This document shows, piece by piece, positions 4,969-21,291 of a DNA stretch of 64,000 nucleotides. The notes beneath the pieces were generated by a model. That model made no database searches. It had not been told where the DNA came from and saw nothing but the letters and a program-made list of their open reading frames with translations. The DNA is from Coriobacteriales bacterium OH1046. GTDB taxonomy: Bacteria; Actinomycetota; Coriobacteriia; Coriobacteriales; Atopobiaceae. How positions within the stretch are numbered: position 1 is the first letter of the stretch; each line of letters begins with the position of its first letter. The position numbers were made by a program, and so were the translations under genes. The DNA is taken from assembly GCA_004010535.1 (NCBI GenBank), contig RQYE01000003.1:124001-188000 (forward strand), given 5' to 3'.

Positions 4969-5024
4969 GAGAACTTGCACTAATGGAGAGGATGCCACGT
5001 CGGCATCAATAAGAGGTGGAGCCT

Positions 5025-5951
5025 ATGGATTCCAAGACCCTGCGCTACATCGCCAAGCGCGTCATCTTGGCGATCGTCACGCTCTGGGCGGTCATCACCA
5101 TCACATTCTTCGTCATGCACGCCGTTCCCGGCGGCCCGTTCACGCGCGAGAAGGCCATCTCGGCCGAGGCGCAGGCGGCCCTCGAGGCGAAGTACGGCCT
5201 CGATAAACCGCTGTTCGAGCAATACATCACCTATCTGAACGACGCGCTGCACGGCAACTTCGGCCCTTCCATCAAACAGCGCGGCCGCATGGTCACCGAC
5301 ATCATCCTCGACGGCATGCGCACCTCTGCCAAGATCGGTCTCATCGCCTTGGTCATCGCCACGGTGCTCGGCATCCTGTTCGGTGCGCTTGCGGCACTCC
5401 GGCGCAACTCCCTCGCGGATAAGACCATCATGGTGATGACCACGGCCTTCGTCTCGATGCCGTCGTTCATCATGGGGTCTCTTCTGATGATCCTCTTCTG
5501 CGTCGTGCTTGCCGTCCTACCCGCCAACGGCGCTTCAAAGGGCGGTCTGATCCTGCCCATCATCACGCTCTCGCTCTATCCGATGGCCTACATAACGCGC
5601 CTCACGCGCTCATCCATGCTCGACGTGCTCGGCCAGGACTACATCCGCACCGCAAAGGCCAAGGGAGTTTCCGAGCGCATGATCATCGTCAAGCACGCTC
5701 TCAAGAACTCCCTCATCCCGGTCATCACCTACTTCGGTCCGCAGCTGGCCTATATCGTCACGGGATCGCTCGTCGTCGAGCAGATCTTCGCGGTGCCGGG
5801 TATCGGCCGCTACTTCGTGAACTCCATCACGGGCCGCGATTACACCCTCATCATGGGCACCACCATCGTGCTCGCAACCCTCATCGTCACCATGAACCTG
5901 GTGAGCGACATCCTCTACAAGGTCGTCGATCCCAGGATCAACCTCGAGTAG
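5025..5951 (+). CDS. oppB: Oligopeptide ABC transporter permease, OppB type (second system)
   Basis: Complete 308-residue OppB/DppB permease. I start at the ATG at 5025 because AAGAGGTGG sits about 5 nt upstream; a GTG at 5016 in the same frame lies inside that ribosome-binding site. The protein opens with the family-typical KTLRYIAKRVILAIVTLWAV helix, then a periplasmic-type segment with PGGPFTREKAIS, and has the EAA loop RTAKAKGVSERMIIVKHALK. It ends with the conserved VVDPRINLE. With the next three genes it forms a complete membrane and ATPase set, but no binding-protein gene is present in this operon. Confidence 0.95.
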   Translation: MDSKTLRYIAKRVILAIVTLWAVITITFFVMHAVPGGPFTREKAISAEAQAALEAKYGLDKPLFEQYITYLNDALHGNFGPSIKQRGRMVTDIILDGMRTSAKIGLIALVIATVLGILFGALAALRRNSLADKTIMVMTTAFVSMPSFIMGSLLMILFCVVLAVLPANGASKGGLILPIITLSLYPMAYITRLTRSSMLDVLGQDYIRTAKAKGVSERMIIVKHALKNSLIPVITYFGPQLAYIVTGSLVVEQIFAVPGIGRYFVNSITGRDYTLIMGTTIVLATLIVTMNLVSDILYKVVDPRINLE

Positions 5952-5963
5952 GAGGCGGGCGCC

Positions 5964-7022
5964 ATGACAAAGAAGCCGCTTTCGCTGCATGTCGATGCCG
6001 AGGACTTCCTCCCCGCAAGCGAGGAGGAGAAGGCCTACATGGTGCAGATGCGCCCGTCCACGACCTTCTTCAAGGATGGCTGCAAGCGCCTCGTCAAGAA
6101 CAAGGTCGCGTTCATAAGCCTCATCGCCATCGTGCTCATCACCATCTTGTCCATCGTCCTGCCCCTGGTATGGCCCTACAGCTATGCGCGGCAACTCGGC
6201 AACCAACCCGGTCGCCCGGTCGATCCGAGCTTCAACAACCTGCGCCCGATGGAGTATTCCATCACCGAGCAAGCCGCCCTCGAGGCGGGGGAGAGCGTCT
6301 TCCCGCATCTCTTCGGCACCGATGCCTCCGGCCGCGATTACTTCATCCGCGTGGTCTACGGTACGCGCATCTCCCTTGCGGTGGGCTTCTTCGCATCGAT
6401 CATCGTCCTCGTCATCGGCATGACACTCGGCTCGATCGCCGGGTTCTCCGGCGGCAGGATCGATATGGTCATCATGCGCATCGTCGATATCATCTACTCC
6501 CTGCCCGACATGCTCATGGTCATCCTGCTCGCGAGCGTCATGCGCGAGACCATGGGGCCGATCATCGAGGGTACGGTGCTGCAGACGATCGGCTCGAACA
6601 TCATCTCGCTCTTCATCATCTTCGCGCTCCTGTACTGGTGCTCGATGGCACGCCTCATCCGAGGTCAGATCCTGTCGCTGCGCGAGCAGGAGTACGTCCT
6701 CGCGGCCCAGGCCACGGGCGCGGGTGCCGGCTGGATCATCAAGAAGCACCTCATCCCCAACTGCATCTCGGTCATCATCATCTCGACCGCCTTGCAGATC
6801 CCCAACGCCATCTTCACCGAGAGTTTCCTCTCGTTTCTGGGTTTGGGCGTCAACGCTCCCATGCCCTCGCTCGGCAGCCTCGCCTCCGAGGCGCTGAACG
6901 GCATCACGTCCTACGGGTACCGTCTGGTCATCCCCGCCATCGTCATCTCGCTCATCGTGCTCTCCCTGAACCTCTTCGGCGATGGCCTGCGCGATGCCTT
7001 CGACCCCAAGCTCAATCAGTAG
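5964..7022 (+). CDS. oppC: Oligopeptide ABC transporter permease, OppC type (second system)
   Basis: A 352-residue permease that partners the preceding OppB, starting 12 nt after it behind GTAGGAGG. One membrane helix near residues 50-72 is followed by a short outer segment (about 40 residues) and then HLFGTDASGRDYFIRVVYG, the usual OppC spacing. This contrasts with the long insertion of the paralogue at 832. The EAA loop is LAAQATGAGAGWIIKKHLIP. The C-terminus FGDGLRDAFDPKLNQ is nearly the same as in the first OppC, so the two systems are paralogous, not copies of each other. Confidence 0.95.
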   Translation: MTKKPLSLHVDAEDFLPASEEEKAYMVQMRPSTTFFKDGCKRLVKNKVAFISLIAIVLITILSIVLPLVWPYSYARQLGNQPGRPVDPSFNNLRPMEYSITEQAALEAGESVFPHLFGTDASGRDYFIRVVYGTRISLAVGFFASIIVLVIGMTLGSIAGFSGGRIDMVIMRIVDIIYSLPDMLMVILLASVMRETMGPIIEGTVLQTIGSNIISLFIIFALLYWCSMARLIRGQILSLREQEYVLAAQATGAGAGWIIKKHLIPNCISVIIISTALQIPNAIFTESFLSFLGLGVNAPMPSLGSLASEALNGITSYGYRLVIPAIVISLIVLSLNLFGDGLRDAFDPKLNQ

Positions 7023-7038
7023 AAAGGAGGAGCCGACC

Positions 7039-8085
7039 ATGTCATCACTTCTTGAGGTCACCGATCTGCATACGTCGTTCTTCACCGACGCCGGCGAGGT
7101 CAAAGCGGTAAACGGCATCTCCTTCTTCCTCGATCGCGGCAAAGTGCTGGGCATCGTGGGGGAATCGGGCTCGGGCAAATCGGTCACCGCCTATTCCATC
7201 CTCCAGATCCTCGCCCCTACCGGCAGGATCGTCTCCGGTTCCGTCAAGCTCGACGGCCAGGAGCTCGTGGGCGCCGGCGAGAAGGCCATGCAGGATGTGC
7301 GCGGCAACAAGATCTCCATCATCTTCCAAGATCCGATGACCTCCCTCAACCCTACCTATACCATCGGCCACCAACTGATGGAGGCCATCATGCTCCACAC
7401 CAAACGCGACAAGCGGGAGGCATGGGACCGTGCCGTCGAGATGCTGCGGCTGGTCAACATCAACGAGCCCGAGAAGCGCATGAGGCAGTACCCCTTCGAG
7501 CAATCGGGCGGTATGCGCCAGCGCATCATGATCGCCATGGCGCTCGCCTGCGAGCCCGATATCCTCATCGCCGACGAGCCCACCACGGCCCTCGATGTCA
7601 CCATCCAGGCCCAGATCCTCGAGCTCATGCAGGACCTGCAGAGAAAGCTGGGCATGGCCATCATCATGATCACCCACGATCTGGGTGTCGTTGCCCAGAT
7701 GTGCGACGAGATCGTGGTCATGTATGCCGGCTCCTATTGCGAGCGCGGCACGGCCGAGGAGATCTTCTACAACCCCAAGCATGAGTACACGAAGGGGCTC
7801 CTGCGCTCCATCCCCACGCTCGATACCATGGGCCGGAAGCTCCAGCCCATCACCGGCACCCCCATCGATCTGCTCAACCTTCCCGAAGGCTGCCCTTTCG
7901 CCCCGCGCTGCGATGCGGCCATGAGGATCTGCATCCGCCAAGCCCCCGCGAGCATGGATATCAACGAGTTCCATAAGGCATCCTGCTGGATGAACGTGAA
8001 GGCGCTTGCCGAAACAGAGGCCGCCCTCGAAGATGACGGCGCTGCAGATGCCGCCGAGACCCCGGAAGGCGGCGATGCAAAGTGA
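7039..8085 (+). CDS. oppD: Oligopeptide ABC transporter ATP-binding protein, OppD type (second system)
   Basis: A 348-residue ATPase. The start at 7039 is fixed by AAAGGAGG nine nt upstream; an in-frame ATG at 6982 lies within oppC and is rejected. Walker A GESGSGKS is near residue 42, the signature is QSGGMRQR (Q instead of the usual L) near 155 and Walker [13 protein letters not shown] near 175. The C-terminal oligopeptide extension contains spaced cysteines ([15 protein letters not shown]). An alanine- and glutamate-rich tail of about 25 residues follows. It is translationally coupled to oppF through a GTGA overlap. Confidence 0.95.
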
Positions 8086-9068
8086 GCACCGAAACGCGCC
8101 CCCTTGTCGAGATCCAGCATCTCAAGGAGTATTTCCCCATCAACACCGGCTTCTTCAAGACCACGCCCCTCAAGGCCGTCGATGATGTGAGCTTCACCAT
8201 CAATCGCGGCGAGACGCTCGGCCTGGTGGGGGAGTCCGGCTGCGGCAAGACCACGGTCGGCCGCACCATCCTGCACCTCTACAAACCCACCGACGGCCTC
8301 GTCATCTACGATGGCAAGCCCATCGAGACCAAGGAGGATCTGGCCGAATACCGAACGAAGACCACGATGGTCTTCCAAGATCCCTACTCCTCCTTGAATC
8401 CCCGCATGACGGTCTCCGATATCATCGCCGAGCCTCTCGACGTGCACAAGCTGTATACCGATCCCAAGCAGCGCGAGGAGCGCGTCCTCGAGCTCATGGA
8501 CCACGTGGGCCTGAACTCGGAGCATGCCTCCCGCTACGCCCACGAGTTCTCCGGCGGCCAGCGCCAGCGCATCGGCATCGCCCGTGCGCTCGCCATCAAC
8601 CCCGAGTTCATCGTCTGCGACGAGCCTGTCTCGGCCCTCGACGTCTCCATCCAGGCGCAGGTCATCAACATGTTCGATGAGCTGCAGGATCGCTTCGGCC
8701 TCACCTACCTCTTCATCGCGCACGACCTGCTCGTCGTCCGCCATATCTCCGACCGCATCGCCGTCATGTACTTGGGCAAGATGGTCGAGCTCGCCTCATC
8801 GGAGGAGATCTACGATCATCCGCTGCATCCCTATACCAAATCGCTCATCTCGGCGGTGCCCATCCCCGATCCCAAGATCGCCCGCGCCAACAGGCGCATC
8901 TCGCTCCAAGGCGATATCCCGAGCCCGCTCAACGCTCCTTCCGGGTGCCCGTTCCGCACGCGCTGCCCGTATGCGACCGATGCCTGCGCCGCATCCATGC
9001 CCGCATTCGAGGAGATCGAGTCCGGGCACTTCGTGGCGTGCCATCGCGTGAACGAGATCAATACGTAA
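8082..9068 (+). CDS. oppF: Oligopeptide ABC transporter ATP-binding protein, OppF type (second system)
   Basis: A 328-residue ATPase starting at GTG inside the stop codon of the second oppD. Walker [10 protein letters not shown] is near residue 50, signature FSGGQRQR near 156, Walker [13 protein letters not shown] near 176, and the H-loop is IAHDLLVV. The C-terminal motif [15 protein letters not shown] is the oligopeptide-transporter cysteine motif. It is the last gene of the second opp operon; the next gene begins 200 bp downstream behind its own promoter-like sequence. CCTCCC and GGGAGG copies just after the stop could form only a weak hairpin. Confidence 0.95.
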
Positions 9069-9269: not shown

Positions 9270-10022
9270 ATGAGACTGTGTGCCCGATGCGGAGCCTCCC
9301 TTCCAGACGATGCGGCGTTCTGCGGTACCTGCGGGCAGGCGGCAGGTTCATCCGGGGCTGCGAGGGAGCAGCCCGCGCCCCAACCCCCTGCCGCCGCGCG
9401 GGATCTTTCCGCAGGCTCCCGTCCGACCCTGTGCGCCGATGGGAAGTACCGCTGGGTGTATGAGCTCAGCATGTTCAGAAACCCCATCATCCTCTTCGTC
9501 ATCTGGAGGATATTCGGCGCTGTGTCCGTCGGCATCTGGCTCTTCGTGATGGCCCTCGAGGCCTCGGATGGCGATCTCGACATGAGGAACGGCATCATCC
9601 TGACCGGGACGTTCCTCCTGTTCCTCGTAGGCATGCTCGTCCTCTCCACCGTCGCCTATCTCGTGTACGCCCTCATCATGGGCGGCAGCTACTGCGTCCT
9701 CTTCGAGATGGACGAACACGGCGTCGTCCACCGCCAACTCGCGCGGCAGGCCAAGAAGGCCGAAGCGCTAGCCGCCATCAACGTGCTCGTGGGCATGGCC
9801 ACGGCGAATGCCACGCAGGCCGGCATAGGGATCCTCTCCGCGAAAAGCGAGCTGGCGTCCACCTTCGCCAAGGTGAGGAGTATCCGGGCTCTACGTCGCC
9901 GCAACACCATCAAGGTGAACGAGCCCTTCGCCAAGAACCAGATCTACTGCGAGGACGCGGACTTCGACTTCGTCCTCGACCATATCGCCCAGCGCTGCCC
10001 GCACGCGAAGATCAGGGGCTAG
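9270..10022 (+). CDS. Zinc-ribbon membrane protein
   Basis: A 250-residue protein that opens with a zinc ribbon (CARCGASLPDDAAFCGTCG, two CxxC knuckles), followed by an alanine- and proline-rich linker to about residue 50. Two hydrophobic segments (about residues 72-94 and 110-138) flank an acidic loop. The C-terminal half (about 140-250) is soluble, with a basic patch (IRALRRRNTIKVNEPFAKNQ) and resembles the PH-like tail seen in other zinc-ribbon membrane proteins of gut bacteria; I cannot name the family. It is the first gene of a three-gene cassette with a 1361-residue protein 42 nt downstream. A role as a membrane partner of that protein is inferred from context. Confidence 0.85.
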   Translation: MRLCARCGASLPDDAAFCGTCGQAAGSSGAAREQPAPQPPAAARDLSAGSRPTLCADGKYRWVYELSMFRNPIILFVIWRIFGAVSVGIWLFVMALEASDGDLDMRNGIILTGTFLLFLVGMLVLSTVAYLVYALIMGGSYCVLFEMDEHGVVHRQLARQAKKAEALAAINVLVGMATANATQAGIGILSAKSELASTFAKVRSIRALRRRNTIKVNEPFAKNQIYCEDADFDFVLDHIAQRCPHAKIRG

Positions 10023-10064
10023 ACAGGGCCACGGCTTCCATCGACAACCGAGAGAGGTCACACC

Positions 10065-13000
10065 ATGAGGGCCAAACGCAGCTCGCCTATCACGGAGCAT
10101 ATTTTCAAGCGGATCGTACGCCCCCTGCTCGTCACAACCTTTGCCTTGGCATCGCTTCTACCATGCCTGCCCACCTCGGTGCTTGCCGAGTCCGGTGGCG
10201 CTCCCACTTGGACCTACGTGGGCAAGAGGGCCACGCTCTACGAGATCCCTCGGAACCAGCCGCTGTACAGGGAGGTCCAGGCAACCAGATCGTACGGCGA
10301 TACGGAGCTCCTCGTCGACTACCAGGGTTACGAGACCGACATCATAAGCGAAGAGGAAGATCTCTTGGCTTTCACGTGCGAATATCGGTGGTCGAGCCCG
10401 CCTTCGTCGATTGCCGTGGGGCATGAGGAGGAGCTCCTCCTACACGGGACGCTCGAGCTTTCCCACAGTTCCCACATGCTCTCCCCGTTCCATCATTACA
10501 GCGAAAGTTGCGTCGCCAAGGGTACAATGCTTGCCGAGTTGTTCCTTTTCGGGTACGAACGCGCGCTTCCTGTCACCACAGACGATCGCTATGCATTGAT
10601 CTACGATCTCGCCTATTCCCCATCCGAGGTCGCCGAGGAGGGTCGGACCGACTTTCCCCCGGCGTACTCGATCGGTTGGGGCTACTCCATGGGCGTTTGC
10701 AGCGTGTCCGCTTCGAACACTTTCTCGGAAGCCCCGTTCTCCATAAGCGACCCTGCGCTCTACGATAGGACCGCCGCCATCGCCCAGGGGTTGGATGCGG
10801 TCGATCCTTGGACCCCCCTTTCCGCCATACCCCCTGAGAATCGGGGTTACTTCCTGGTCATCGTGCTGTCGATGGAGAGCGCTGGTTTCCAGATGGAGTA
10901 CTTCTACAGCTATGAGCCCTCCGACGCCACCTCCTCTGGCACCGTCCCGCCCACGCATGTCGTGGTCGACACCGATGCCCCTCAGGATCCGGGCGAGTCC
11001 CTCGGCCCCGTAATCCCCGCGGCCATCGTTGCCGGCACCGTGGCCGTGGCGGGGGGCGCTGCGGCAGCCATCGTCAGGGGGAGGCGCAAGCGCGCCCCCA
11101 AGGGCGGCGACGAGGACACCGGAGACGACGTGCAGAGGTCTCCCAGCAGCTACCGCATGGTGCTTTTCAAGGAGTTCGGGGACACCATCCTCGTCGGCGG
11201 CGAACCCAGGCTCGTGGGCGCGCGCATAGAGGAGGTGGGGCCGGACGGCCGTCCCATCGACCGCCCGGATCTCACCGGGCGCATCCAGATCGCGCTCAGC
11301 GAGAACCTCACGAACGACGGTGCCAAGATGTGCGGTCGCTACATGGCCACCCATGTGGGTGCGGATGGGCGTGACGAGGAGGGGGGCGGCGAGGCGATCA
11401 TATGCTTCAGCTTCACGGGCCCCGGCGGCAGCCTCCGCAACAACGTGCACTTCAAGGTCAGGAACGGGTGCGGGCTCGTCTTCGCTCAGGAGGCGCTCAC
11501 CTTCATCGCCGGCGCGGGGCAGCGCCTCCAGATGCCCTTCGGTATCGAGGGCGTCGACCTCTCATCCGGGATCGAGCCCCGCTTCGAGCTGAGCATCAGC
11601 ACGAGCAACGCGAGCGACTTCACCGATCTACGCGTCACGAGGGACGCGGAGCATCCCGACATCCTCTGGAATGTCGAGATGCGCGAGTGCGGCAAGCCCG
11701 ACACGCTCCCAGCGGGTTACATGGAGTCGTACAGCTGCCAGGTCACGGCGGCGATCCCCGGTGCACGGGGCGACAGGATCATACGCGGAAGCTACGAGTT
11801 CTACCGCTTCCACGAGGGCATACGCTTCAGCTGCCAGCATCTCAAGGCCTACTATGTGAGGAAGGGCGCCCCCGAGTCCCCGCAGCTGGCGAGCGGGACC
11901 GGAGACGGCACGGCGCAGGGCGATTCCCCCGAACCCGCCGTGGTGGAGCTTACGCCGGCCCGTACCAAGGCGACGGTCACGTTCTATTCTTGGGATGCCG
12001 AGAACGGGAAGCTCATCAACCCCATCCCCGACGTCAAGGAGATCAGGCTCTCCTTCGCCGATGTTCCCGGCTCGGAGCGCTTCTGGGGCAAGGACGGCAA
12101 CAGGCTCGACAGGCCTTGCGAGGCGCTCGACTTCAGGTACTTCATCTCGGATATCGAGGGCGTCGACAACACGCTCCACTACGACATCCTACCCGTGAAC
12201 GGTGTGATGCAGCCGCCCAACCGCAGCCAGGCGGACGTCACGGTCTCGCTTACCTGGGAGGGGAAGCCCTATCAGGCCACCGAACGGGTCAACGTCATCT
12301 CCCAGCCGTACCGCACGGACCTCGATGGAAGGCGTGCCGAGTACAGGGAGCAGGACCGCCATCGCGAAGAGCGCCTGACCTACATCAAGCGCAAGATCCT
12401 CGACGACCCGGTGTATGGCGACATGATGCCGGTCTGCTACCTGATCGATGCCATGCTGGACGGCTATGCCCCCGAGTTCGGCTACTTCGAGCCCGACTGG
12501 CTGCGGGTGAGGAGCCTGTTCATCCGTTACACCACGGGAGAGATAGGCAGCATCGAGGCGAACGACCTCGCGTTCTACGGGCGGGCGCTGGAATATTCGG
12601 ATGCTTTCAAGATGACGGTGCAGGGCTTCACCAAATCCATCCCCCTGGCCGTCCTGCGCATAGGCTGCGCCATAAAGACGGGCGGCGCCTCCGAAGCCTT
12701 CTTCCTCCCGCTCGCAGCCATCGCGAAGGGCACCGAATCCTCCTTGGATTACGTCGATAAGGGTGGGGATTCCCTGCTCGAGGCCTATCGGGTGGGAGCC
12801 AGCTCCGCTTCCAAGGCGGCCCTCGCGGATTACCTCACGGGCAAGGCTATCGAGGGGGTGTTCGCGCTTGCAGCGGCGGCTGCGCGGGCAGCCGCGAAGG
12901 GTGCGCTGGTGCTCGCGGGGAAGGCAAAGGTTGCCAAGGACGCCCTCACGATGCGCCTCAAGGGCCTGTCCTCCACGGGGAAGGGTGCAGGCGCGCTCAA

Positions 13001-14150
13001 GTCCGCCGCCACGAACGTGGGCAAACAGCTGGACGACGCGGCCATCGCCGCCCGGAAGGCCATCGACGCCAACCGCGATCTCGTGCTCGGCAGCGCGGAG
13101 CTCACCAAACGCGACATCGCCTACACCTTGGGCCGTATCAACGGACGGCTCAAGTATCTCGATGAGCTCAAGGCCCTCAAGCGTTGGGACAAACTCTCCC
13201 GTTTCGAGCAGCAGAAGATCGTCCTTGCCGTGCAGTCCGACAAGCATGCCATGCGCGCGCTCATGGAGGCGGACGATCCGCTCGCCCATCTCGTGAGGGC
13301 CAACCATTCCAAGGTCATGGCCGCTATGGAGGGCAAGGCGCTCCACATGGCCCGCGTCTCGCTCTCCGACGAGTTGAAGGTTCCCCTGTCCAAGATCCGC
13401 GTCAAGACCACCTCGGGCAATCTCGCTGCCGACATCAGGGCGGGCAAGGGCCTCTCCATGGATATGGACGCCTCCTTCGAGGTGGAGATCGACGGCACGT
13501 GGGTGTATGTGAAGGAGTCTTTGGGGCAGCGGCACTTCGACAAGGCGTTCTTCAAGATCTCCCGCGGCTACGATGCGGTGGACGATATCGCTGCGGCGAT
13601 GCACTCCAAGGCCCATGACCTCTCCATCGTGGATGCCGCCGGCAAGCAATCCTACGGTACCTACGAGGATGCCCTGCGCATCATCAAAGCTGAACGCGCA
13701 GGCGAGGTCTTCGATGACGTGCAGCGCGTGGTGAAGACCGTCGACTACAAGAACGAGGAATGGCTCGAACTCGCGCGCACTGCCCGCGCAGATGCCAAGG
13801 CGGCGCTCGTCCAAGGCAGGGCGAGGGAGGCGCAGTGGCTCTCCGAGGCCGCCGAGAGCTTCGTCGAGGAGGGCTGCCGCTCCTTCACCAAGCAGACGAA
13901 CCGCGCCGTCGTCAACAAGCTCATCGCCCTCGAGAAAAGCGGCGTGAAGGTTGATGCGGGCAACTTCCTCGCCAAGGCCAAGGTCATCGAGCAATCCGGC
14001 ATCGGGAAGAACAGGGGGGCGGGTCTCACCACCGCCGAGGTCGAGATCACGCTCGAGAACGGGTTCAATGCCACACTCGAAGACGTGTTCGGCGAGCTGG
14101 GACCGATGATCAAGAAGCTGAACCGCCTGCTCGAAGGCGGTACGCGCTGA
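10065..14150 (+). CDS. Very large exported membrane protein of unknown function (1361 residues)
   Basis: Residues 1-41 look like a signal peptide (KRIVRPLLVTTFALASLLPC, then AxA-like cleavage near VLAES). Residues 42-315 form a predicted outside domain. A second hydrophobic stretch at about 316-337 is followed by RGRRKRAPK, so about 1000 residues should lie in the cytoplasm. That part has beta-rich, Ig-like stretches (about 360-780), then an alanine- and lysine-rich helical region (about 900-1080). Near 1103-1145 is a compact segment, KTTSGNLAADIRAGKGLSMD then MDASFEVEIDG, with a D-x-D motif. A helical C-terminus follows. I recognise no named family. It sits between two zinc-ribbon genes, which suggests a joint membrane system. 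A surface signalling or effector role is possible but unproven. Confidence 0.88.
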   Translation: MRAKRSSPITEHIFKRIVRPLLVTTFALASLLPCLPTSVLAESGGAPTWTYVGKRATLYEIPRNQPLYREVQATRSYGDTELLVDYQGYETDIISEEEDLLAFTCEYRWSSPPSSIAVGHEEELLLHGTLELSHSSHMLSPFHHYSESCVAKGTMLAELFLFGYERALPVTTDDRYALIYDLAYSPSEVAEEGRTDFPPAYSIGWGYSMGVCSVSASNTFSEAPFSISDPALYDRTAAIAQGLDAVDPWTPLSAIPPENRGYFLVIVLSMESAGFQMEYFYSYEPSDATSSGTVPPTHVVVDTDAPQDPGESLGPVIPAAIVAGTVAVAGGAAAAIVRGRRKRAPKGGDEDTGDDVQRSPSSYRMVLFKEFGDTILVGGEPRLVGARIEEVGPDGRPIDRPDLTGRIQIALSENLTNDGAKMCGRYMATHVGADGRDEEGGGEAIICFSFTGPGGSLRNNVHFKVRNGCGLVFAQEALTFIAGAGQRLQMPFGIEGVDLSSGIEPRFELSISTSNASDFTDLRVTRDAEHPDILWNVEMRECGKPDTLPAGYMESYSCQVTAAIPGARGDRIIRGSYEFYRFHEGIRFSCQHLKAYYVRKGAPESPQLASGTGDGTAQGDSPEPAVVELTPARTKATVTFYSWDAENGKLINPIPDVKEIRLSFADVPGSERFWGKDGNRLDRPCEALDFRYFISDIEGVDNTLHYDILPVNGVMQPPNRSQADVTVSLTWEGKPYQATERVNVISQPYRTDLDGRRAEYREQDRHREERLTYIKRKILDDPVYGDMMPVCYLIDAMLDGYAPEFGYFEPDWLRVRSLFIRYTTGEIGSIEANDLAFYGRALEYSDAFKMTVQGFTKSIPLAVLRIGCAIKTGGASEAFFLPLAAIAKGTESSLDYVDKGGDSLLEAYRVGASSASKAALADYLTGKAIEGVFALAAAAARAAAKGALVLAGKAKVAKDALTMRLKGLSSTGKGAGALKSAATNVGKQLDDAAIAARKAIDANRDLVLGSAELTKRDIAYTLGRINGRLKYLDELKALKRWDKLSRFEQQKIVLAVQSDKHAMRALMEADDPLAHLVRANHSKVMAAMEGKALHMARVSLSDELKVPLSKIRVKTTSGNLAADIRAGKGLSMDMDASFEVEIDGTWVYVKESLGQRHFDKAFFKISRGYDAVDDIAAAMHSKAHDLSIVDAAGKQSYGTYEDALRIIKAERAGEVFDDVQRVVKTVDYKNEEWLELARTARADAKAALVQGRAREAQWLSEAAESFVEEGCRSFTKQTNRAVVNKLIALEKSGVKVDAGNFLAKAKVIEQSGIGKNRGAGLTTAEVEITLENGFNATLEDVFGELGPMIKKLNRLLEGGTR

Positions 14151-14180
14151 GTTTGCGGCGCAGGAGACGAGGAGGATGAC

Positions 14181-14657
14181 ATGGCATTTTGCGAGGGATG
14201 CGGAACACGGCTTGCCGGGGGAGCCCGATTCTGCACCGTATGCGGCAGGAAGGCCCCGGCCTCGCCTGCTGCAACCCACGATGCCGACACATCCGGAAGA
14301 GCCGGGTCGTGCGCGCGTTGCGGAGCCCGGCTGCCGGAGGCGGCCAGATTCTGCAAGGCGTGCGGGAAGCCGGTGGTCGGGCAGGACCGTCGGGCAATGA
14401 TGGCGCCGCCTGCCGCAGGTGCCGGCCTCGGAACCGCTTCGGTGCAGGATGTGGTCGGGTCGGCTCTTCCGGCGCTCTTCGATGGGGAAGAGGAACCCTA
14501 TCTCTTCGAGGGCGAGCTTCCGGCCCCCGAGGCGATCGACGAGGCGATCGGCGTGGCGGAGGATGCCATCCGCGCTTCCATGAAAGAGATCGTCGAACTC
14601 AACGTGGCGGCACCGTCCGAGAGCGGCGAGGCGATCGTGGCGAGCTGGCTGGGATAG
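14181..14657 (+). CDS. Double zinc-ribbon protein
   Basis: A 158-residue soluble protein with two tandem zinc ribbons at about residues 4-25 (CEGCGTRLAGGARFCTVCG) and 43-62 (CARCGARLPEAARFCKACG). An acidic C-terminal half follows, with no membrane segment. Eight cysteines in four CxxC pairs are intact. It lies 30 nt after the 1361-residue gene, behind GGAGACGAGGAGG, and closes the cassette. Such ribbons usually act as protein-interaction modules in membrane-linked complexes. No catalytic motif is visible. Confidence 0.85.
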   Translation: MAFCEGCGTRLAGGARFCTVCGRKAPASPAATHDADTSGRAGSCARCGARLPEAARFCKACGKPVVGQDRRAMMAPPAAGAGLGTASVQDVVGSALPALFDGEEEPYLFEGELPAPEAIDEAIGVAEDAIRASMKEIVELNVAAPSESGEAIVASWLG

Positions 14658-14778
14658 CATCCGCATCGACCGTCGCATAGGCGCTTCAAACTGCGCAGGC
14701 GAGGGGAAACAGACCGTCTGGGAGATAGTCCTTGCCCGGGGTTCCTTTCGGGTGTTTCCCGTACTATACTTTGCCATA

Positions 14779-14834
14779 GTGTGAAAACCTCATGTAGATA
14801 TGAGGCAGAAACCATGGATTTTTTCGATTCACAC
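14779..14834 (+). promoter_or_regulatory. Inverted repeats in the leader of the mannose PTS operon
   Basis: GTGTGAA at 14779-14785 is mirrored by TTCACAC at 14828-14834, with a smaller perfect CCTCAT-N6-ATGAGG repeat inside (14789-14806). They lie just after a TATACT -10-like hexamer (14765-14770) and before the RBS AAGGAGG of the first PTS gene. The arrangement fits an operator or a leader hairpin; the regulator is not known. The -35 partner is poor. Confidence 0.35.
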
Positions 14835-14875
14835 GGTCCCGTAGGTATCAGGAGAACAGGTAAGGAGGAAGTTGA

Positions 14876-15877
14876 ATGGTAAGCATCGTACTGGCAAGCC
14901 ATGGTGCGTTGGCTCAGGGCATCATGGAGTCGGGGAGCATGATCTTCGGCCCGCAGGAGAGCGTTGCGGCCGTCGTTCTCACTCCCGACATGGGCCCTGA
15001 CGACATGCACCGGAAACTGCTCGAAGCCGTCGCCGCCCTCGCCGATCAGGAGCATGTGCTGTTCCTCGTCGACCTGTGGGGTGGCACCCCCTTCAACCAG
15101 GTATCCCGTATCCTCGAAGAGGAGCAGCACGAGGATTGGGTGGCGGTCACGGGTCTCAGTCTCCCCATGCTCGTCGCCGCCTACGGCTCGCGCATGGGGG
15201 CGGATACCGCCGCCGCTGTTGCCGAGGAGATCTATCCCGAGGCCAAGGCGAGCGTGAAGATCAAACCCGAGGTGCTCGAGCCCGTCGAGGCACCGGCCCC
15301 TGCTCCTGCTGTTCCCGCCGCTCCCGCAGGCGCCATCCCCGAAGGCACGGTTCTGGGAGACGGGCATATCAAGATCGCCCACGTGCGCGTTGATACCCGC
15401 CTACTCCACGGCCAGGTAGCCACCGCGTGGACCAAGGCCGTCTCTCCCGACCGCATCATCGTGGTTTCCGACGGGGTCTCCCATGATGAGCTGCGCAAGA
15501 CCATGATCGTCCAAGCGGCTCCTCCCGGCGTCAAGGTGCACGTGGTACCCATGTCCAAGATGATCGAGGTCGCCCACGACCCGCGCTTCGGCGCGACCAA
15601 GGTGTTCCTGCTCTTCGAGACCCCCCAGGAGGTCCTCGAGGCCATCGAGGGCGGCGTCGATATCAAGAAGGTCAACCTCGGTTCCATGGCCCATACCGTG
15701 GGCAAGGTCGTCGTCACCAACGCCATCGCCATGGGCGAGTCCGACATCGAGTGCCTCGAGGCGCTCGAGGCCAAGGGCGTCGAATTCGACGTGCGCAAGG
15801 TCCCTGCGGATACGCCTGAGAACTTCGACGCAATGATGAAGAAGGCCAAGGCCGAGCTGGCCTCGGCCAAGGCATAG
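14876..15877 (+). CDS. manX: PTS mannose-family EIIAB component
   Basis: Cytoplasmic phosphocarrier of a mannose/fructose/sorbose-family phosphotransferase system. Residues 1-135 are the IIA domain with the phospho-accepting His9 in IVLASHG and the conserved FLVDLWGGTPFN. An alanine- and proline-rich linker (about 138-160) joins it to the IIB domain, whose active His178 is in DTRLLHGQVATAW. The IIB domain ends with the usual ALEAKGVEF region. The 333-residue length and domain order match ManX. The start follows AAGGAGG. The next gene, IIC, is 13 nt downstream. The exact sugar cannot be told from sequence alone. Confidence 0.95.
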   Translation: MVSIVLASHGALAQGIMESGSMIFGPQESVAAVVLTPDMGPDDMHRKLLEAVAALADQEHVLFLVDLWGGTPFNQVSRILEEEQHEDWVAVTGLSLPMLVAAYGSRMGADTAAAVAEEIYPEAKASVKIKPEVLEPVEAPAPAPAVPAAPAGAIPEGTVLGDGHIKIAHVRVDTRLLHGQVATAWTKAVSPDRIIVVSDGVSHDELRKTMIVQAAPPGVKVHVVPMSKMIEVAHDPRFGATKVFLLFETPQEVLEAIEGGVDIKKVNLGSMAHTVGKVVVTNAIAMGESDIECLEALEAKGVEFDVRKVPADTPENFDAMMKKAKAELASAKA

Positions 15878-15890
15878 AAGGAGGTAGGAA

Positions 15891-16706
15891 GTGAATCCCA
15901 TCACCATCGCCCTCATCGCCCTCGTCGCCTTCTTCGCGGGCATGGAAGGCATCCTCGACGAATGGCAGTTCCACCAGCCGCTTGTCGCCTGCACCCTCAT
16001 CGGCCTCGTGAGCGGCCATCTTGCCGAGGGCATCATGCTGGGCGGATCCCTGCAGCTCATCGCCCTCGGCTGGGCCAACATCGGTGCCGCCGTGGCTCCC
16101 GATGCCGCGCTCGCCTCGGTTGCATCCGCCATCATCATGGTGCTCGCCTTAAGCGACAGCTCCGTCGATGTGACCAATGCGATCAACACCTCCATCGCCC
16201 TGGCGGTGCCTTTGTCCGTCGCAGGCCTCTTCTTGACGATGATCGTCCGCACGCTGGCCATCCCGGTGGTCCACGCCATGGACGCCGCAGCCGACCGGGC
16301 TGATTTCGCAGGCGTCGAGCGCTGGCAGGTCATGGCCATCGCCATGCAGGGCGTGCGCATCGCCATCCCCGCAGCCGCCCTGTGCTTCGTCCCTGCCGAG
16401 GCTGTCACCAGCGCCCTCAACGCCATGCCTGCGTGGCTCTCCGGCGGCATGGCCGTCGGCGGCGGCATGGTTGCGGCCGTCGGCTACGCCATGGTCATCA
16501 ACATGATGGCGACTCCCGAGGTCTGGCCGTTCTTCGTGCTCGGCTTCGTCCTGGCGGCCCTCTCCCAGCTCACGCTCATCGCGCTCGGCGCGATCGGCGT
16601 CTGCCTCGCCCTCATCTACCTGGGCCTCAAGGAGGTTGCGGCCTCCGGCGGCGGTGCGCGCACCGGCTCCGGCGACCCGCTGGGCGATATCCTCGATAAC
16701 TACTGA
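15891..16706 (+). CDS. manY: PTS mannose-family EIIC component
   Basis: Membrane permease of the mannose-type PTS, 271 residues, starting at GTG behind AAGGAGGTAGG. The N-terminus (ALIALVAFFAGMEGILDEWQ) and the motif QPLVACTLIGLVSGHLAEGI with GGSLQLIALGWANIGAA are diagnostic of EIIC-Man. Several membrane helices span the protein. It operates with the IID subunit encoded 51 nt downstream. Confidence 0.96.
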   Translation: MNPITIALIALVAFFAGMEGILDEWQFHQPLVACTLIGLVSGHLAEGIMLGGSLQLIALGWANIGAAVAPDAALASVASAIIMVLALSDSSVDVTNAINTSIALAVPLSVAGLFLTMIVRTLAIPVVHAMDAAADRADFAGVERWQVMAIAMQGVRIAIPAAALCFVPAEAVTSALNAMPAWLSGGMAVGGGMVAAVGYAMVINMMATPEVWPFFVLGFVLAALSQLTLIALGAIGVCLALIYLGLKEVAASGGGARTGSGDPLGDILDNY

Positions 16707-16757
16707 TCCTCGAAGCAGCTACCGCGATACCACGAGGTCTCGAGAGGAGACGAACAC

Positions 16758-17678
16758 ATGGCAGACAAGAAGATCGAACTCACCAGGCAGGATCGGCTCG
16801 CCGTTGCGTGGCGCCACCAGTTCCTGCAGGGCTCTTGGAACTACGAGCGCATGCAGAACGGCGGCTGGTGCTACGCCATGATCCCTGCGATCAAGAGGCT
16901 CTATTCCTCCAAGGAGGACCAAGCTGCGGCACTCAAGCGCCATATGGAGTTCTATAACACCCAACCCTATGTTTCCGCACCCGTCATCGGCGTGGCGCTC
17001 GCCCTCGAGGAGGAGCGCGCCAACGGCATCGCGATCGACGACGTCACCATCCAGGGCGTCAAGGTCGGCATGATGGGCCCGCTCGCCGGCGTCGGCGACC
17101 CCGTCTTCTGGTTCACCATCCGCCCGATCCTGGGCGCCCTCGGCGCAACCCTCGCCCTCAGCGGCAACATCGTCGGCCCGCTCCTGTTCTTCGTGGCCTG
17201 GAATGCCATCCGCCTCGCCTTCCTGTGGTACACGCAGGAGTTCGGCTATCGCGTGGGCACCGAGATCACCAAGGACCTCTCCGGCGGCCTTCTGGGCAAG
17301 ATCACGTCCGGAGCCTCCATCTTGGGCATGTTCATCATCGGAGCGCTGGTCAATCGCTGGGTATCCATCTCGTTCACCCCGGTCGTCTCGACCGTCGCGC
17401 AGCAGGAGGGTGCCTACATCGATTGGGAGGCGCTTCCCGCCGGCGTCGAGGGGATCAAGTCGGCGCTCGAGCAGTTCGCGGCTCTGGGACCGACCGGCCT
17501 CAACATGGACAAGGTCACCACGCTCCAGTCCAACTTCGACCAGCTCATCCCCGGGCTTGCCGCACTGCTGCTCACGCTGCTGTGCTGCAGGCTCCTCAAG
17601 AAGAACGTCTCGCCGATCGCCATCATCCTGGCCCTCTTCGCGGTGGGCGTCGTGGCGCGCGTCATCGGTCTGATGTAG
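16758..17678 (+). CDS. manZ: PTS mannose-family EIID component
   Basis: Second membrane subunit of the PTS translocator, 306 residues. The opening LTRQDRLAVAWRHQFLQGSW followed by NYERMQNGGW and the stretch MMGPLAGVGDPVFWFTIRPI are hallmark EIID sequences. The C-terminus carries hydrophobic helices (LIPGLAALLLTLLCCRLLKK). The gene has a good RBS (GAGAGGAG). A long hairpin lies beyond the stop. Confidence 0.96.
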   Translation: MADKKIELTRQDRLAVAWRHQFLQGSWNYERMQNGGWCYAMIPAIKRLYSSKEDQAAALKRHMEFYNTQPYVSAPVIGVALALEEERANGIAIDDVTIQGVKVGMMGPLAGVGDPVFWFTIRPILGALGATLALSGNIVGPLLFFVAWNAIRLAFLWYTQEFGYRVGTEITKDLSGGLLGKITSGASILGMFIIGALVNRWVSISFTPVVSTVAQQEGAYIDWEALPAGVEGIKSALEQFAALGPTGLNMDKVTTLQSNFDQLIPGLAALLLTLLCCRLLKKNVSPIAIILALFAVGVVARVIGLM

Positions 17679-17720
17679 GGTTTTCACAGGCACGCCTGCT
17701 GGAGCAAGGCTCGAGATCAA

Positions 17721-17781
17721 GGCTGTGCCCCGTTAGGATCCGCAGACATCAGATCATGGTCTGAGGGTACGGGGCACAGCC
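17721..17781 (+). terminator. Long nested hairpin between manZ and the DUF956 gene
   Basis: A perfect 13-bp inverted repeat, GGCTGTGCCCCGT at 17721-17733 and its complement at 17769-17781. A smaller TCAGA-N6-TCTGA hairpin (17749-17764) is inside its loop. The downstream GTTTCC is a poor U-tract, so it may be a partial terminator or an RNA processing or stability element that sets the level of the last gene against the PTS genes. Confidence 0.5.
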
Positions 17782-17847
17782 GTTTCCTATGCGCGCAGAT
17801 CCCGCCTCGGTACTGCGGCGGGGGGACGCTTCGCGGAGGGGATGCGT

Positions 17848-18225
17848 ATGGCGCAGTCGCAGAACAGCACCGTGGAGCTCACCATCAAGGCGACCCTCCT
17901 CCAAGGACTTGCCACCTATGGCGATGTCATGGTGGGCAACCGCGCCTTCGAGTTCTATAACGAGCGCAATCCCGAGGATTTCATCCAGATCCCCTGGGAT
18001 GAGATCGACCGCATCGAAGCCGAGGTCATCGGACGCAAGATCGCCCGTTTCGCCATCTTCACGAAAGAGGATGGGCACTTCTCCTTCTCGACGCGCGATA
18101 ACGCTGCGACCCTGCGTGCCCTGCGCGCCCATGTGCCCGAAAAGCGCATGCTGCGCAGCTTGGGCTTCTTCGATGTGGTACGGCTCGGGCTGCACAGGCT
18201 CCTCCATAGGGGCCGCCGCGCGTAG
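17848..18225 (+). CDS. manO: DUF956 (ManO-like) PTS-associated protein
   Basis: A 125-residue cytoplasmic protein of the DUF956 family, which is found almost always beside mannose PTS genes and is thought to influence their expression or activity. Typical features are ATLLQGLATYGDVMVGNRAF near the N-terminus and IPWDEIDRIEAEVIG, both part of a PH-like beta fold. I prefer the ATG at 17848 to the one at 17842 because GCGGAGGGG then lies at normal spacing. The stop is embedded in a GC-rich inverted repeat. Confidence 0.85.
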   Translation: MAQSQNSTVELTIKATLLQGLATYGDVMVGNRAFEFYNERNPEDFIQIPWDEIDRIEAEVIGRKIARFAIFTKEDGHFSFSTRDNAATLRALRAHVPEKRMLRSLGFFDVVRLGLHRLLHRGRRA

Positions 18226-18260
18226 CGGCGGCCACCGATCTTCGCCGGCACCCCCGAGGG

Positions 18261-18289
18261 GGAGCCGCCGTTCCTCGCCCGGCGGCTCC
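18261..18289 (+). terminator. GC-rich hairpin after the PTS operon
   Basis: A perfect 10-bp stem (GGAGCCGCCG/CGGCGGCTCC) with a 9-nt loop, 35 bp after the DUF956 stop. There is no U-run, so it is not a classic intrinsic terminator, but its place at the operon end makes a termination or 3'-protection role plausible. Confidence 0.4.
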
Positions 18290-18387
18290 GAGGGGGCAGC
18301 CGTTCATCCGTTGCGGCACCGTTCCCGCCCTCATATCGGCTGCTTGCGGGTATGCTTGACAAAGCGTCCGCAGAGATGGGAGCCGCC

Positions 18388-19236
18388 ATGATCAAGCTCG
18401 TGCTGACCGACATGGACATGACCCTGCTTCCCTATGGGAGGCCGGCAAGCGACCGCGCCCTCGCCGCCATCCACCGGCTCGTCGACAGGGGCGTGTGCTT
18501 CGGCCCCGCCAGCGGGCGCGACTGGGACTCGGTCCTCGAATCGTTCAGGGGTGACGAGTCCTGCATGCAGACGGCCCTGCTCTCCAACGGCAAGAAGATC
18601 TATGCCCACGGCACCCTCGTCAACCAGACCTCGATGGACCGCTCCAACATCGTGACCATGGCCGAGATGGTCCATGACCTCCCGGGCGTCTATGTGAGCG
18701 GCCGGGGCGACAGGGGCGGCTTCATCTCCGGCTCCACCTACGAGAGCCTCATGGGCACCACCTGGGGGTCCCGTCGTGCGGACGAGCTCTGCGAGCCCGC
18801 CGACATCCCCGATTGGCCCATCGTCACCGCCGGGCTCCACTTCGAGGAGGGCTCCGAAGAGATCGACAACAACGAGTGGGCCGACAGGATACGCGCCGCC
18901 TGTCCCAAGCTCGACCTCATCTCGCCGGGGTCGCGCATGTTCGATTGCGTCCCCAAGGGCTGGTCCAAGGAGAGCGGCCTGCGCATCCTGCAGATCATCC
19001 TCGCCGTCGATGCGGACGAGGTCGTCTGCTTCGGCGATTCCGACAACGACTACAAGATCCTCTCGGCCGTGCCCCACTCCGTGGCGGTGGCCAACGCCAA
19101 CGATCGCGTCCGTGCCGTCGCGCGCCATCATATCGGCTCCTGCGAGGACGATGCGGTCGGATACGCCCTCGAGGATATAGCCGATCTCGACGAGGGCGCC
19201 TTCGAGAAATGGGACCGCGCCTATCGGGGTGCCTGA
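18388..19236 (+). CDS. HAD-superfamily phosphatase (Cof type)
   Basis: A 282-residue soluble hydrolase of the Cof/YidA group. The nucleophile motif DMDMT (Asp8, Asp10) is at the N-terminus and motif IV is FGDSDNDY near the C-terminus, with a C2-type cap between. The start at 18388 follows GGGAG at 5 nt; an in-frame ATG at 18352 has no ribosome-binding site. Family members dephosphorylate sugar phosphates or pyridoxal phosphate. Its place after a sugar PTS suggests a sugar-phosphate substrate, which is inference. Confidence 0.88.
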   Translation: MIKLVLTDMDMTLLPYGRPASDRALAAIHRLVDRGVCFGPASGRDWDSVLESFRGDESCMQTALLSNGKKIYAHGTLVNQTSMDRSNIVTMAEMVHDLPGVYVSGRGDRGGFISGSTYESLMGTTWGSRRADELCEPADIPDWPIVTAGLHFEEGSEEIDNNEWADRIRAACPKLDLISPGSRMFDCVPKGWSKESGLRILQIILAVDADEVVCFGDSDNDYKILSAVPHSVAVANANDRVRAVARHHIGSCEDDAVGYALEDIADLDEGAFEKWDRAYRGA

Positions 19237-19479: not shown

Positions 19480-21291
19480 ATGACCAAGCTTTCCCGTAGG
19501 AATTTCCTGAAGACGCTCGGCGGCGTGGTCGTCGTCGGCAGCCTTGCGGCGTGCAACGGCGGCGGATCGGGCGACGGCTCCGATACCACCGATACCACCG
19601 GGACCACCGGCGCATTCGCCACCCCCGAGGAGGCCGAGGCCGCCAAGGCCGAGATCCGCAGGGCAATCGGCCTGCTCTTCGACCGCACCTACATCTGCGA
19701 GCAGATCGCCCAGGCGGATCAGATCCCTGCGAGCACCTTCGTATGCCAGGGTGTGGGCGAGCCCGACGGCTCCGATTTCATGCACAACGCCGGCCGCGGC
19801 AACGGCACCGGCTACTACGACGCCGGCCAGGAGGCCCTCGCCGCCAACTTCGAGGCGGCTGTCGATGTCCTCAAGAAGTACTACACCTACGATGAGGGCA
19901 GCGGGATGTTCACCGACTTCCCCACGATGACCTACCTCTACAACACCAGCGAGTCCCACAAGGCCATCGGCGAGTACCTCCAGAGCGCGCTCGCGGGCGT
20001 CGGCATCACCATGAATATGGAGAACCAGGAGTGGGCCACCTTCCTCAACACCCGTAAGGACGGCAACTACTCCATCGCCCGCAACGGCTGGATCATGGAC
20101 TACACCGACCCGATCTGCATGCTCGATATGTGGACCTCCGGTTCCGGCAACAACGACGTCCAGTACGGCAAGGGCGCCCATGCCGATCTCGCCATGTACA
20201 ACCTCGACCTCACCCCGTGGGGCTACGACACCAAGGTCGAGAACGGCACTTGGGCCGAGACCTTCGACGTCCTCATCGACACCATCAACAAGTGCTCCGA
20301 TCAGCCCAAGCGCTTCGAGATGATGCACCTCGCCGAGGATATCCTCATGGATACCGGCTGCCTCTGCCCACTCTACTACTACACCAACCCCTACCTGCTC
20401 AACAAGGATGTCGAGGGCTTCTACGTCACGCCGCTGGGCTTCGCGCACTTCGAGAAGACCACCGTCGCGGGTGCCGGCGACTCCATCAACGTCACCTACG
20501 GCTCCGAGCCCGACACGCTCGACCCCGCCCTCAACTCCGCCGTCGACGGCGCCACCACGCTCGTCCACACCTTCGCCGGCCTCTCCAAGTGGGATCTCCA
20601 GCCCGACGGCACCTACGCCATCGCCCCCGAGTGCGCTCAGGAGATGGTCGAGGGCGTCGAGAACGAGGATGGGACCGTCACCTACACCTATACCCTCCGC
20701 GACGGCCTCACCTGGTCCGACGGCCAGCCGCTGACCGCCCATGACTTCGAGTTCGCATGGAAGCGCGCCGCCTCCGACGAGCTCGGCGCGGACTACGGCG
20801 AGATGTACTCCGTCATCGTCGGCTATCCCAACGACCTCGCCGTGACCGCCACCGATGACAAGACCCTCGAGGTCACCACGACCAACCTCATCGCATACTG
20901 GGACGAGCTCATGGCCTTCCCCGTGTTCTATCCGGTGCGCGAGGACGTCGTGTCCAACGAGTCTTGGGCAACCGATCCCGCCACCTACGTTTGCAACGGC
21001 CCCTACAGCATCTCCAAGTGGGATCACAACTCCGTCATCACGCTCACCAAGCGCGACGATTACTGGGATGCCGCCAACATCTCCATGTCCGAGATCAACT
21101 GGTACCTCTCCGATGACCATAACACCAACCTCGCCAACTGGGAGAACGGCGATTGGCACTACATCGACGAGATCCCCACGAACGAGATGGCCCGCGTCAA
21201 GGAGCAGTACGCCGACCAGTACGTCGTCGCCCCGTACGCCGGCACCTACTACGTCTGCTGGAACGTCAACACGGAGATCCTCCCCGCATAG
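19480..21291 (+). CDS. Oligopeptide-binding lipoprotein (OppA family) in circularly permuted order
   Basis: Extracytoplasmic peptide-binding protein, 603 residues, with a twin-arginine-like lipoprotein signal (SRRNFLKTLGG, lipobox LAAC, Cys25) and a Gly/Thr linker. Residues 47-330 match the C-terminal half of OppA: RRAIGLLFDRTYI, LYNTSESHK, NQEWATFLNTR, ARNGWIMDYTDP and LYYYTNPYLL. Residues 333-603 match the N-terminal half: SINVTYGSEPDTLDPALN, LRDGLTWSDGQPLTAHDFEF, NGPYSISKWDHNSVITL, and it ends at YYVCWNVNTE, exactly where the C-half would normally continue. So the order is signal, C-half, N-half, with both joints in frame. It probably serves one of the Opp permeases about 10 kb upstream. 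Confidence 0.93.
   Translation: MTKLSRRNFLKTLGGVVVVGSLAACNGGGSGDGSDTTDTTGTTGAFATPEEAEAAKAEIRRAIGLLFDRTYICEQIAQADQIPASTFVCQGVGEPDGSDFMHNAGRGNGTGYYDAGQEALAANFEAAVDVLKKYYTYDEGSGMFTDFPTMTYLYNTSESHKAIGEYLQSALAGVGITMNMENQEWATFLNTRKDGNYSIARNGWIMDYTDPICMLDMWTSGSGNNDVQYGKGAHADLAMYNLDLTPWGYDTKVENGTWAETFDVLIDTINKCSDQPKRFEMMHLAEDILMDTGCLCPLYYYTNPYLLNKDVEGFYVTPLGFAHFEKTTVAGAGDSINVTYGSEPDTLDPALNSAVDGATTLVHTFAGLSKWDLQPDGTYAIAPECAQEMVEGVENEDGTVTYTYTLRDGLTWSDGQPLTAHDFEFAWKRAASDELGADYGEMYSVIVGYPNDLAVTATDDKTLEVTTTNLIAYWDELMAFPVFYPVREDVVSNESWATDPATYVCNGPYSISKWDHNSVITLTKRDDYWDAANISMSEINWYLSDDHNTNLANWENGDWHYIDEIPTNEMARVKEQYADQYVVAPYAGTYYVCWNVNTEILPA

Follow-up and report, generated by a model that had tools for sequence, protein, structure and literature searches.

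We find that the gene at positions 19480-21291 of the window (the whole 64,000-nucleotide stretch of Coriobacteriales bacterium OH1046 DNA that was analysed) encodes an OppA-type peptide-binding lipoprotein whose two halves stand in exchanged order. This order is conserved, it occurs in the operon setting of an oligopeptide importer, it has recurred independently among relatives, and the protein has a confidently predicted fold. On sequence grounds, the gene is best read as the oppA of an oligopeptide ABC importer (oppBCDF-A), and we consider it very probable that its product is the working peptide-binding subunit of that importer. More tentatively, the oppA gene that ends oppBCDF-A operons in gut Clostridia and Coriobacteria may be a permutation hot spot, the mature region of which would have been re-opened repeatedly (at least four events and three cut points, with one event in an unrelated SBP_5 gene within the same genome and perhaps reversals such as L231) by a DNA mechanism that spares the signal peptide and the operon.

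The open reading frame coincides exactly with 19480-21291 on the forward strand, encodes 603 amino acids and contains no stops. Positions 212-367 of the Pfam SBP_bac_5 profile (PF00496) are matched at 19636-20154 and positions 6-212 at 20644-21279, in a single open frame, so that 212-367 precedes 6-212; the solved SBP_bac_5 members that we compared follow the canonical N-to-C profile order. The whole protein reaches 202 bits (cut-off 32.4) across the two stretches, and on these matches we report it as a permuted SBP_bac_5 variant and not as a canonical member. When PDB sequences were searched with phmmer, Bacillus subtilis DppE and OppA also aligned in exchanged blocks, query residues 397-599 with chain residues 77-286 and query residues 58-323 with chain residues 292-514. 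We then compared the protein with a profile built from 34 normal-order relatives, from which the window gene was excluded. As encoded, it matches this profile as two domains, the best scoring 475 bits, and rotation to canonical order in silico yields one domain of 909 bits, with other rotation points scoring lower. The exchange of OppA halves claimed in the preliminary description is thus confirmed at the sequence level, well beyond chance, by the Pfam order, the DppE and OppA alignments and the gain upon rotation. The doubled or rotated alignment that it had proposed gives one diagonal, and the motifs that it quoted are all found at the places where it put them.

The signal, the tether, both joints and the stop share one frame, in agreement with the earlier claim that both joints are in frame. 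The further claim that nothing was lost holds for the two halves, both of which are present, but approximately 6-8 residues of the cut loop ('xSxLTG') are missing from the permuted gene. In normal-order relatives this loop reads ILPA-x-S-x-LTG-x-EAE..AEIRN, and its middle is what the permuted gene lacks. The lipoprotein signal expected of an OppA is recognizable by inspection (SRRNFLK...LAAC at residues 5-25), and normal-order relatives in the window's bacterial family bear the same kind of signal. The Pfam TAT_signal profile (PF10518) scores 19.8 bits on the window protein, below the cut-off of 22.7.

Table 1. Features of the permuted oppA gene and its neighbours, in window coordinates.
Feature	Positions	Strand	Evidence or remark
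Lipoprotein signal MTKLSRRNFLKTLGGVVVVGSLAAC, twin-arginine-like SRRNFLK and lipobox LAAC (Cys25)	19480..19554	+	Sequence; PF10518 sub-threshold
Low-complexity Gly/Ser/Asp/Thr tether from lipid anchor to new N-terminus	19555..19620	+	Sequence; low pLDDT, mature-model residues 1-20
Original C-terminal half, now first (SBP_bac_5 212-367 to usual C-terminus)	19621..20457	+	Pfam, phmmer; normal-relative profile h285-562
Asp207 codon in GWIMDYTDP, aligned to GWxxDFxDP of B. subtilis OppA	20098..20100	+	Alignment; role from PMC11192437
Joint TTVAGAGDS, old C-terminus into old N-terminus	20458..20484	+	Similar TTVxGxGDS joints in other permuted proteins
Original N-terminal half, now last (profile 6-212), end ...GTYYVCWNVNTEILPA	20485..21288	+	Profiles; superposes on OppA 1ola residues 1-274
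New stop codon, in loop after first lobe-crossing segment	21289..21291	+	Sequence, loop alignment
oppB, permease of likely cognate importer	5016..5951	+	88% to oppB of permuted-gene operon
oppC, permease	5964..7022	+	87%
oppD, ATPase	7045..8085	+	74%
oppF, ATPase; gene directly before permuted oppA in most relatives	8103..9068	+	76%
Genes between oppF and oppA: ORF 9270-10022, 1361-aa protein, mannose/sorbose-family PTS IIAB, IIC and IID, DUF956, HAD hydrolase	9270..19236	+	Pfam search, no match for the 1361-aa protein

Relatives were rotated to normal order by means of the profile, which gave 181 distinct genes, 141 of them in normal order and 40 permuted; sampling was centred on permuted queries, and 40/181 is not a frequency. 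The permuted genes are cut at three sites. T1 (19 genes, the window's among them) has its cut at h280|282 in the lobe-crossing segment, while T2 (8 genes, h375|378) and T3 (13 genes, h469|491) are cut inside lobe 2. In all three types, each gene retains its own signal peptide and its place after oppF. Within the window's family, a full-length match in the same order is found in 14 of 140 genomes (the window's own included) at 44-95% identity, and the carriers include independently named metagenome assemblies (RUG, RGIG and JPNA series) from several projects. Normal-order homologues exist in other genomes of this family at the same operon position. Outside this family, class-wide scans of the Coriobacteriia at E <= 1e-50 turned up no close relative, and close clostridial relatives beyond one group of genomes are in normal order. 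The dN/dS ratio of the window gene against its 95% orthologue is 0.095; for other orthologue pairs the ratio is harder to read, since codon bias lowers dS. On the absence of stops and this ratio against the nearest orthologue, we reject a frameshifted gene or pseudogene.

Permuted oppA lies immediately 3' of oppBCDF or oppDF in L010, L022-L025, L028, L029 and L033, and it holds the same slot in clostridial genomes, as T1 in L128, L129 and L157, as T2 in L032 and L130-L136, and as T3 in L146 and L216-L232. The equivalent slot is occupied by normal-order oppA in L034-L053, and normal-order relatives at 57-68% identity are found there both in Clostridia and elsewhere in the window's family. Given that permuted and normal oppA share one operon slot, the order change happened in place. 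Most relatives encode the permuted gene directly behind oppF, together with oppBCDF. The closest oppBCDF set in the window, at 5016-9068, is 74-88% identical to the sets beside permuted genes and is parted from oppA (19480) by 10.4 kb of other genes, a complete mannose/sorbose-family PTS operon among them; this distance makes co-transcription doubtful in this genome. G001 has PTS and HAD genes upstream of oppA, as in the window genome. The congeneric G002 has oppA immediately after oppF, without these genes, indicating that the separation was a later event in the G000/G001 lineage.

Two neighbouring arrangements were also observed. At L022, L023, L024, L029, L031 and L033, the permuted gene is immediately succeeded by a normal-order SBP_5 paralogue (~30% identical) with its own oppBCDF-type set, so that two different Opp systems are stacked. 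At L037:7885-9903 (Ruminococcus sp. MAG RGIG2355, goat), the second of two tandem oppA copies carries a type I dockerin (PF00404, residues 37-91) between an N-terminal secretion-signal-like region and the binding protein. By its sequence, this copy is apparently a peptide-binding protein attached to a scaffold of the cellulosome type and not to a lipid anchor.

The structure prediction that the preliminary description had recommended for the window protein turned out to be confident, with a pLDDT of 86.8 and a pTM of 0.83 for AlphaFold2 run without templates on 18 permuted sequences. Residues 302-566 of the model superpose on residues 1-274 of OppA 1ola with a Z score of 28.1 and 2.0 Å over 254 residues. 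The predicted fold is OppA-like, the evidence for the first half being model confidence and sequence homology. The AlphaFold2 model for T3 was poor (pLDDT 64). In OppA, domain I comprises approximately residues 1-44, 169-270 and 487-517, domain II residues 45-168 and domain III residues 271-486. These limits put the T1 cut where domain I meets lobe 2, just past the first of the two lobe-crossing segments. By the same limits, the old termini both fall in domain I and are joined by a nine-residue linker. The chain would have been opened just after the first crossing segment, leaving that crossing open at its end, and the new N-terminus would place the lipid anchor on lobe 2 (domain III) instead of lobe 1. 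Judging from the sequence, the window protein probably still closes on peptides as OppA does. In OppA and AliB an Asp binds the peptide alpha-amino group, and in AliB this is a salt bridge to D503 (PMC11192437). The window gene (Asp207) and most T1 proteins retain the GWxxDYxDP motif with the peptide-binding Asp; parts of the motif are lost in L109 and L110.

We considered whether the swapped order could be an artefact of assembly or binning, in which wrong joining of a normal oppA or of a tandem pair would make the halves only look swapped. Most carriers of the permuted gene are metagenome-assembled genomes, and tandem oppA copies do occur (L037), but the order and the joints are identical in 14 family genomes spanning 44-95% identity and independently named assemblies, every element from signal to stop is in frame, and synonymous changes predominate between orthologues. 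Such an artefact is exceedingly improbable. The preliminary description had itself offered a misassembly scenario, with orthologues in normal order and this gene as the odd one, and the search for orthologues found the same order in these 14 genomes instead. At the DNA level, the role that reads across the junction would have is taken by an independent case, L129/L280, which is collinear with L043 in blocks. We think it improbable, too, that the permuted protein has given up transport for a role at the surface as adhesin, sensor or chemoreceptor. The orphaning of permuted oppA 10 kb from oppBCDF in G000 and G001, the extra normal-order paralogues with their own opp sets that follow the permuted gene in several genomes and the loss of parts of the peptide-binding motif in L109 and L110 would fit such a role; against it stand the position directly behind oppF in most genomes and the retention of the Asp motif in the window gene and most T1 proteins. 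A peptide-binding subunit of an Opp importer is the reading that we carry forward.

Topology tests were conducted on an 86-row maximum-likelihood tree. They reject one clade for all T1 genes (p-AU 0.0014) and also one for T1 and T2 together (p 0.0013); L129 is included in both tests. The rejection for all T1, which argues against their single origin, arises because L129 is placed among normal-order genes; without L129, a single T1 clade is compatible with the data (p-AU 0.735). The T1 genes of Coriobacteria and those of Clostridia may go back to one origin, presumably with lateral transfer, and since such an origin is not rejected, we have not counted them separately. A single origin of T3 is not rejected when the normal-order L231 is left out (p 0.125). 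In the trees, L231 (1372-3111) and L233, also of normal order, nest inside the T3 clade, which would mean possible reversals to canonical order or repeated T3 origins. The minimum count is four permutation events in this lineage, with L158 as a fifth. L158 (2836-4545, minus strand; G140:C5:47835-49541) is a distant DppA-like SBP_5 gene of another lineage, cut at the T1 place. It adjoins two dipeptide-type permease genes (dppB- and dppC-like), and its relatives at 38-41% are in normal order. This fifth event is known from one genome, G140, which carries two T1 permuted oppA genes besides L158. The earlier reading of circular permutation in an OppA-type protein is supported, with the refinement that there are several events and three cut sites.

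As judged from its sequence, L129 (G208) is the most recent case of permutation that we have seen. Its halves are each 83-87% identical to normal-order proteins, and the gene sits in a normal-order clade. Compared with L043 at the DNA level, L129/L280 falls into three blocks at 77-80% identity, with oppBCDF and the signal peptide collinear, then the C-half, then the N-half. The L043 blocks 6175-7007 and 5330-6149 are exchanged in L129, with 3 nt between them; approximately 25 nt of loop are missing, and no part is duplicated. After the permuted gene of this genome, directly behind a terminator-like hairpin, L280:7487-8104 holds an open C-terminal fragment of ~205 residues; it belongs to a second, diverged oppA and lacks the N-terminal half. 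The fragment is only ~40% like the nearest intact proteins and does not represent a relic of the direct progenitor. A search for such a relic near the permuted genes found only this diverged fragment and ordinary paralogues.

How the permuted genes arose can be weighed on this evidence. One ancestral permutation, spread by descent and lateral transfer and with the differing cuts as later shifts of the same permuted protein, seems to us a poor prospect. T1 without L129 and T3 without L231 each fit one clade, and the T1 and T2 joints resemble each other; however, the groupings of all T1 and of T1 with T2 are rejected in the tests that include L129, L129 lies inside a normal-order clade and has a different joint (CTVPTGSS), and L158 belongs to another SBP_5 lineage. 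In addition, T2 proteins have the T1 loop intact and T1 proteins the T2 loop, so that neither is derived from the other by a simple shift. In the scheme of repeated events that we favour, the mature coding region of oppA would have been circularly permuted in place, with signal peptide, tether and operon position unchanged. A tandem duplication of oppA at the 3' end of the operon would have been followed by fusion of the copies and by trimming at different points, giving the T1, T2 and T3 openings. That the operon slot holds normal, T1, T2 and T3 proteins suggests that the fold tolerates several openings and that the order changed repeatedly.

A tandem oppA-oppA' pair is present in L037, and a truncated second oppA lies downstream of L129. 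The TTVxGxGDS joint is common to the Coriobacterial T1 proteins, most clostridial T1 proteins and some T2 proteins, and each of T1 and T2 keeps the loop that is cut in the other; a shared joint with the other's cut region intact is expected from one fused duplicate trimmed at different points. Among the relatives, neither a fused untrimmed duplicate (N-C-N-C) nor a partly trimmed intermediate was found, and none of the 40 permuted genes has duplicated residues at the cuts (overlap of at most one profile position). Because the duplication route is expected to leave duplicated residues, at least in the recent L129, their absence counts against it. This absence in 40/40 genes, together with the clean joints of L129, where L043 blocks are exchanged and nothing is duplicated, speaks for a route in which the mature region was excised as a DNA circle, or cut and pasted, and reopened elsewhere, with no duplication or trimming. 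Such a route is somewhat unlikely, as no mobile element, recombinase site or repeat was found at the joints and a fused duplicate explains the shared T1/T2 joint more easily. Duplication and fusion with subsequent trimming would be the most plausible route, favoured weakly over segment excision.

The window protein resembles OppA, DppE and AliB (SBP_bac_5, cluster C) in its whole-length homology, predicted three-domain, two-lobe fold, lipoprotein signal, oppBCDF company and Asp motif. It differs from them in its exchanged halves, its new ends after the first lobe crossing and, presumably, attachment of the anchor to the opposite lobe. Treponema pallidum has a natural lipid-anchored ABC binding protein that is circularly permuted, TpMglB-2 (Tp0684; 'Type Ic / Cluster Bc'); it binds glucose with normal closure (PMC4990184), which indicates that a permuted binding protein can work. 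In TpMglB-2 there is one cut site, approximately three strands of one lobe are moved, an extra lobe crossing is present, the proteins form one clade and the permuted part is 13% similar (PMC4990184). TpMglB-2 has a Type I sugar-binding fold, whereas the window protein is SBP_5 by sequence and predicted fold and is cut elsewhere; it does not have the 'Type Ic' arrangement, in which one lobe has its first three strands relocated to the C-terminus. In the SBP_5 case, moreover, the cut sites number three, the events at least four or five, and identity to normal-order relatives is 60-87%. In the domain-swapped dimer of pneumococcal AliC (8qlh), lobes 1 and 2 are exchanged between chains via the lobe-crossing segment (PMC11192437). 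This swap uses the same crossing segment, ~20 residues before the T1 cut by alignment, but it is an exchange between two normal-order chains, whereas in the window case the gene order is changed. Permutation by duplication, as in swaposin and DNA methyltransferases, proceeds by tandem duplication and then a new start and stop (PMC3320104). Here, in contrast, the signal peptide stays N-terminal, the mature part alone is permuted and no intermediate was found. The open literature yielded no report of a permuted SBP_5 protein, in line with the earlier statement that no such natural permutation was known in the OppA-type family; the precedent from another family is TpMglB-2. A permuted ABC binding protein as such is known; what is new is that the family is SBP_5, that there are three cut sites and repeated origins, and that close relatives of normal order occupy an identical operon position.

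Where natural circular permutation has been inferred, the homologues are usually distant ones and the steps can no longer be traced. Permuted proteins such as these are split or missed by annotation pipelines, which is a warning, and they offer ready-made permutation points for the peptide-binding fold used in biosensors. With permuted and normal versions 60-87% identical in one operon slot and with several cuts and origins, the oppA genes of these bacteria are a natural experiment in rewiring a protein without loss of its fold: they allow direct tests of the route (duplication and trimming or segment swap), of how far the fold tolerates such openings and of what shifting the anchor to the other lobe does.
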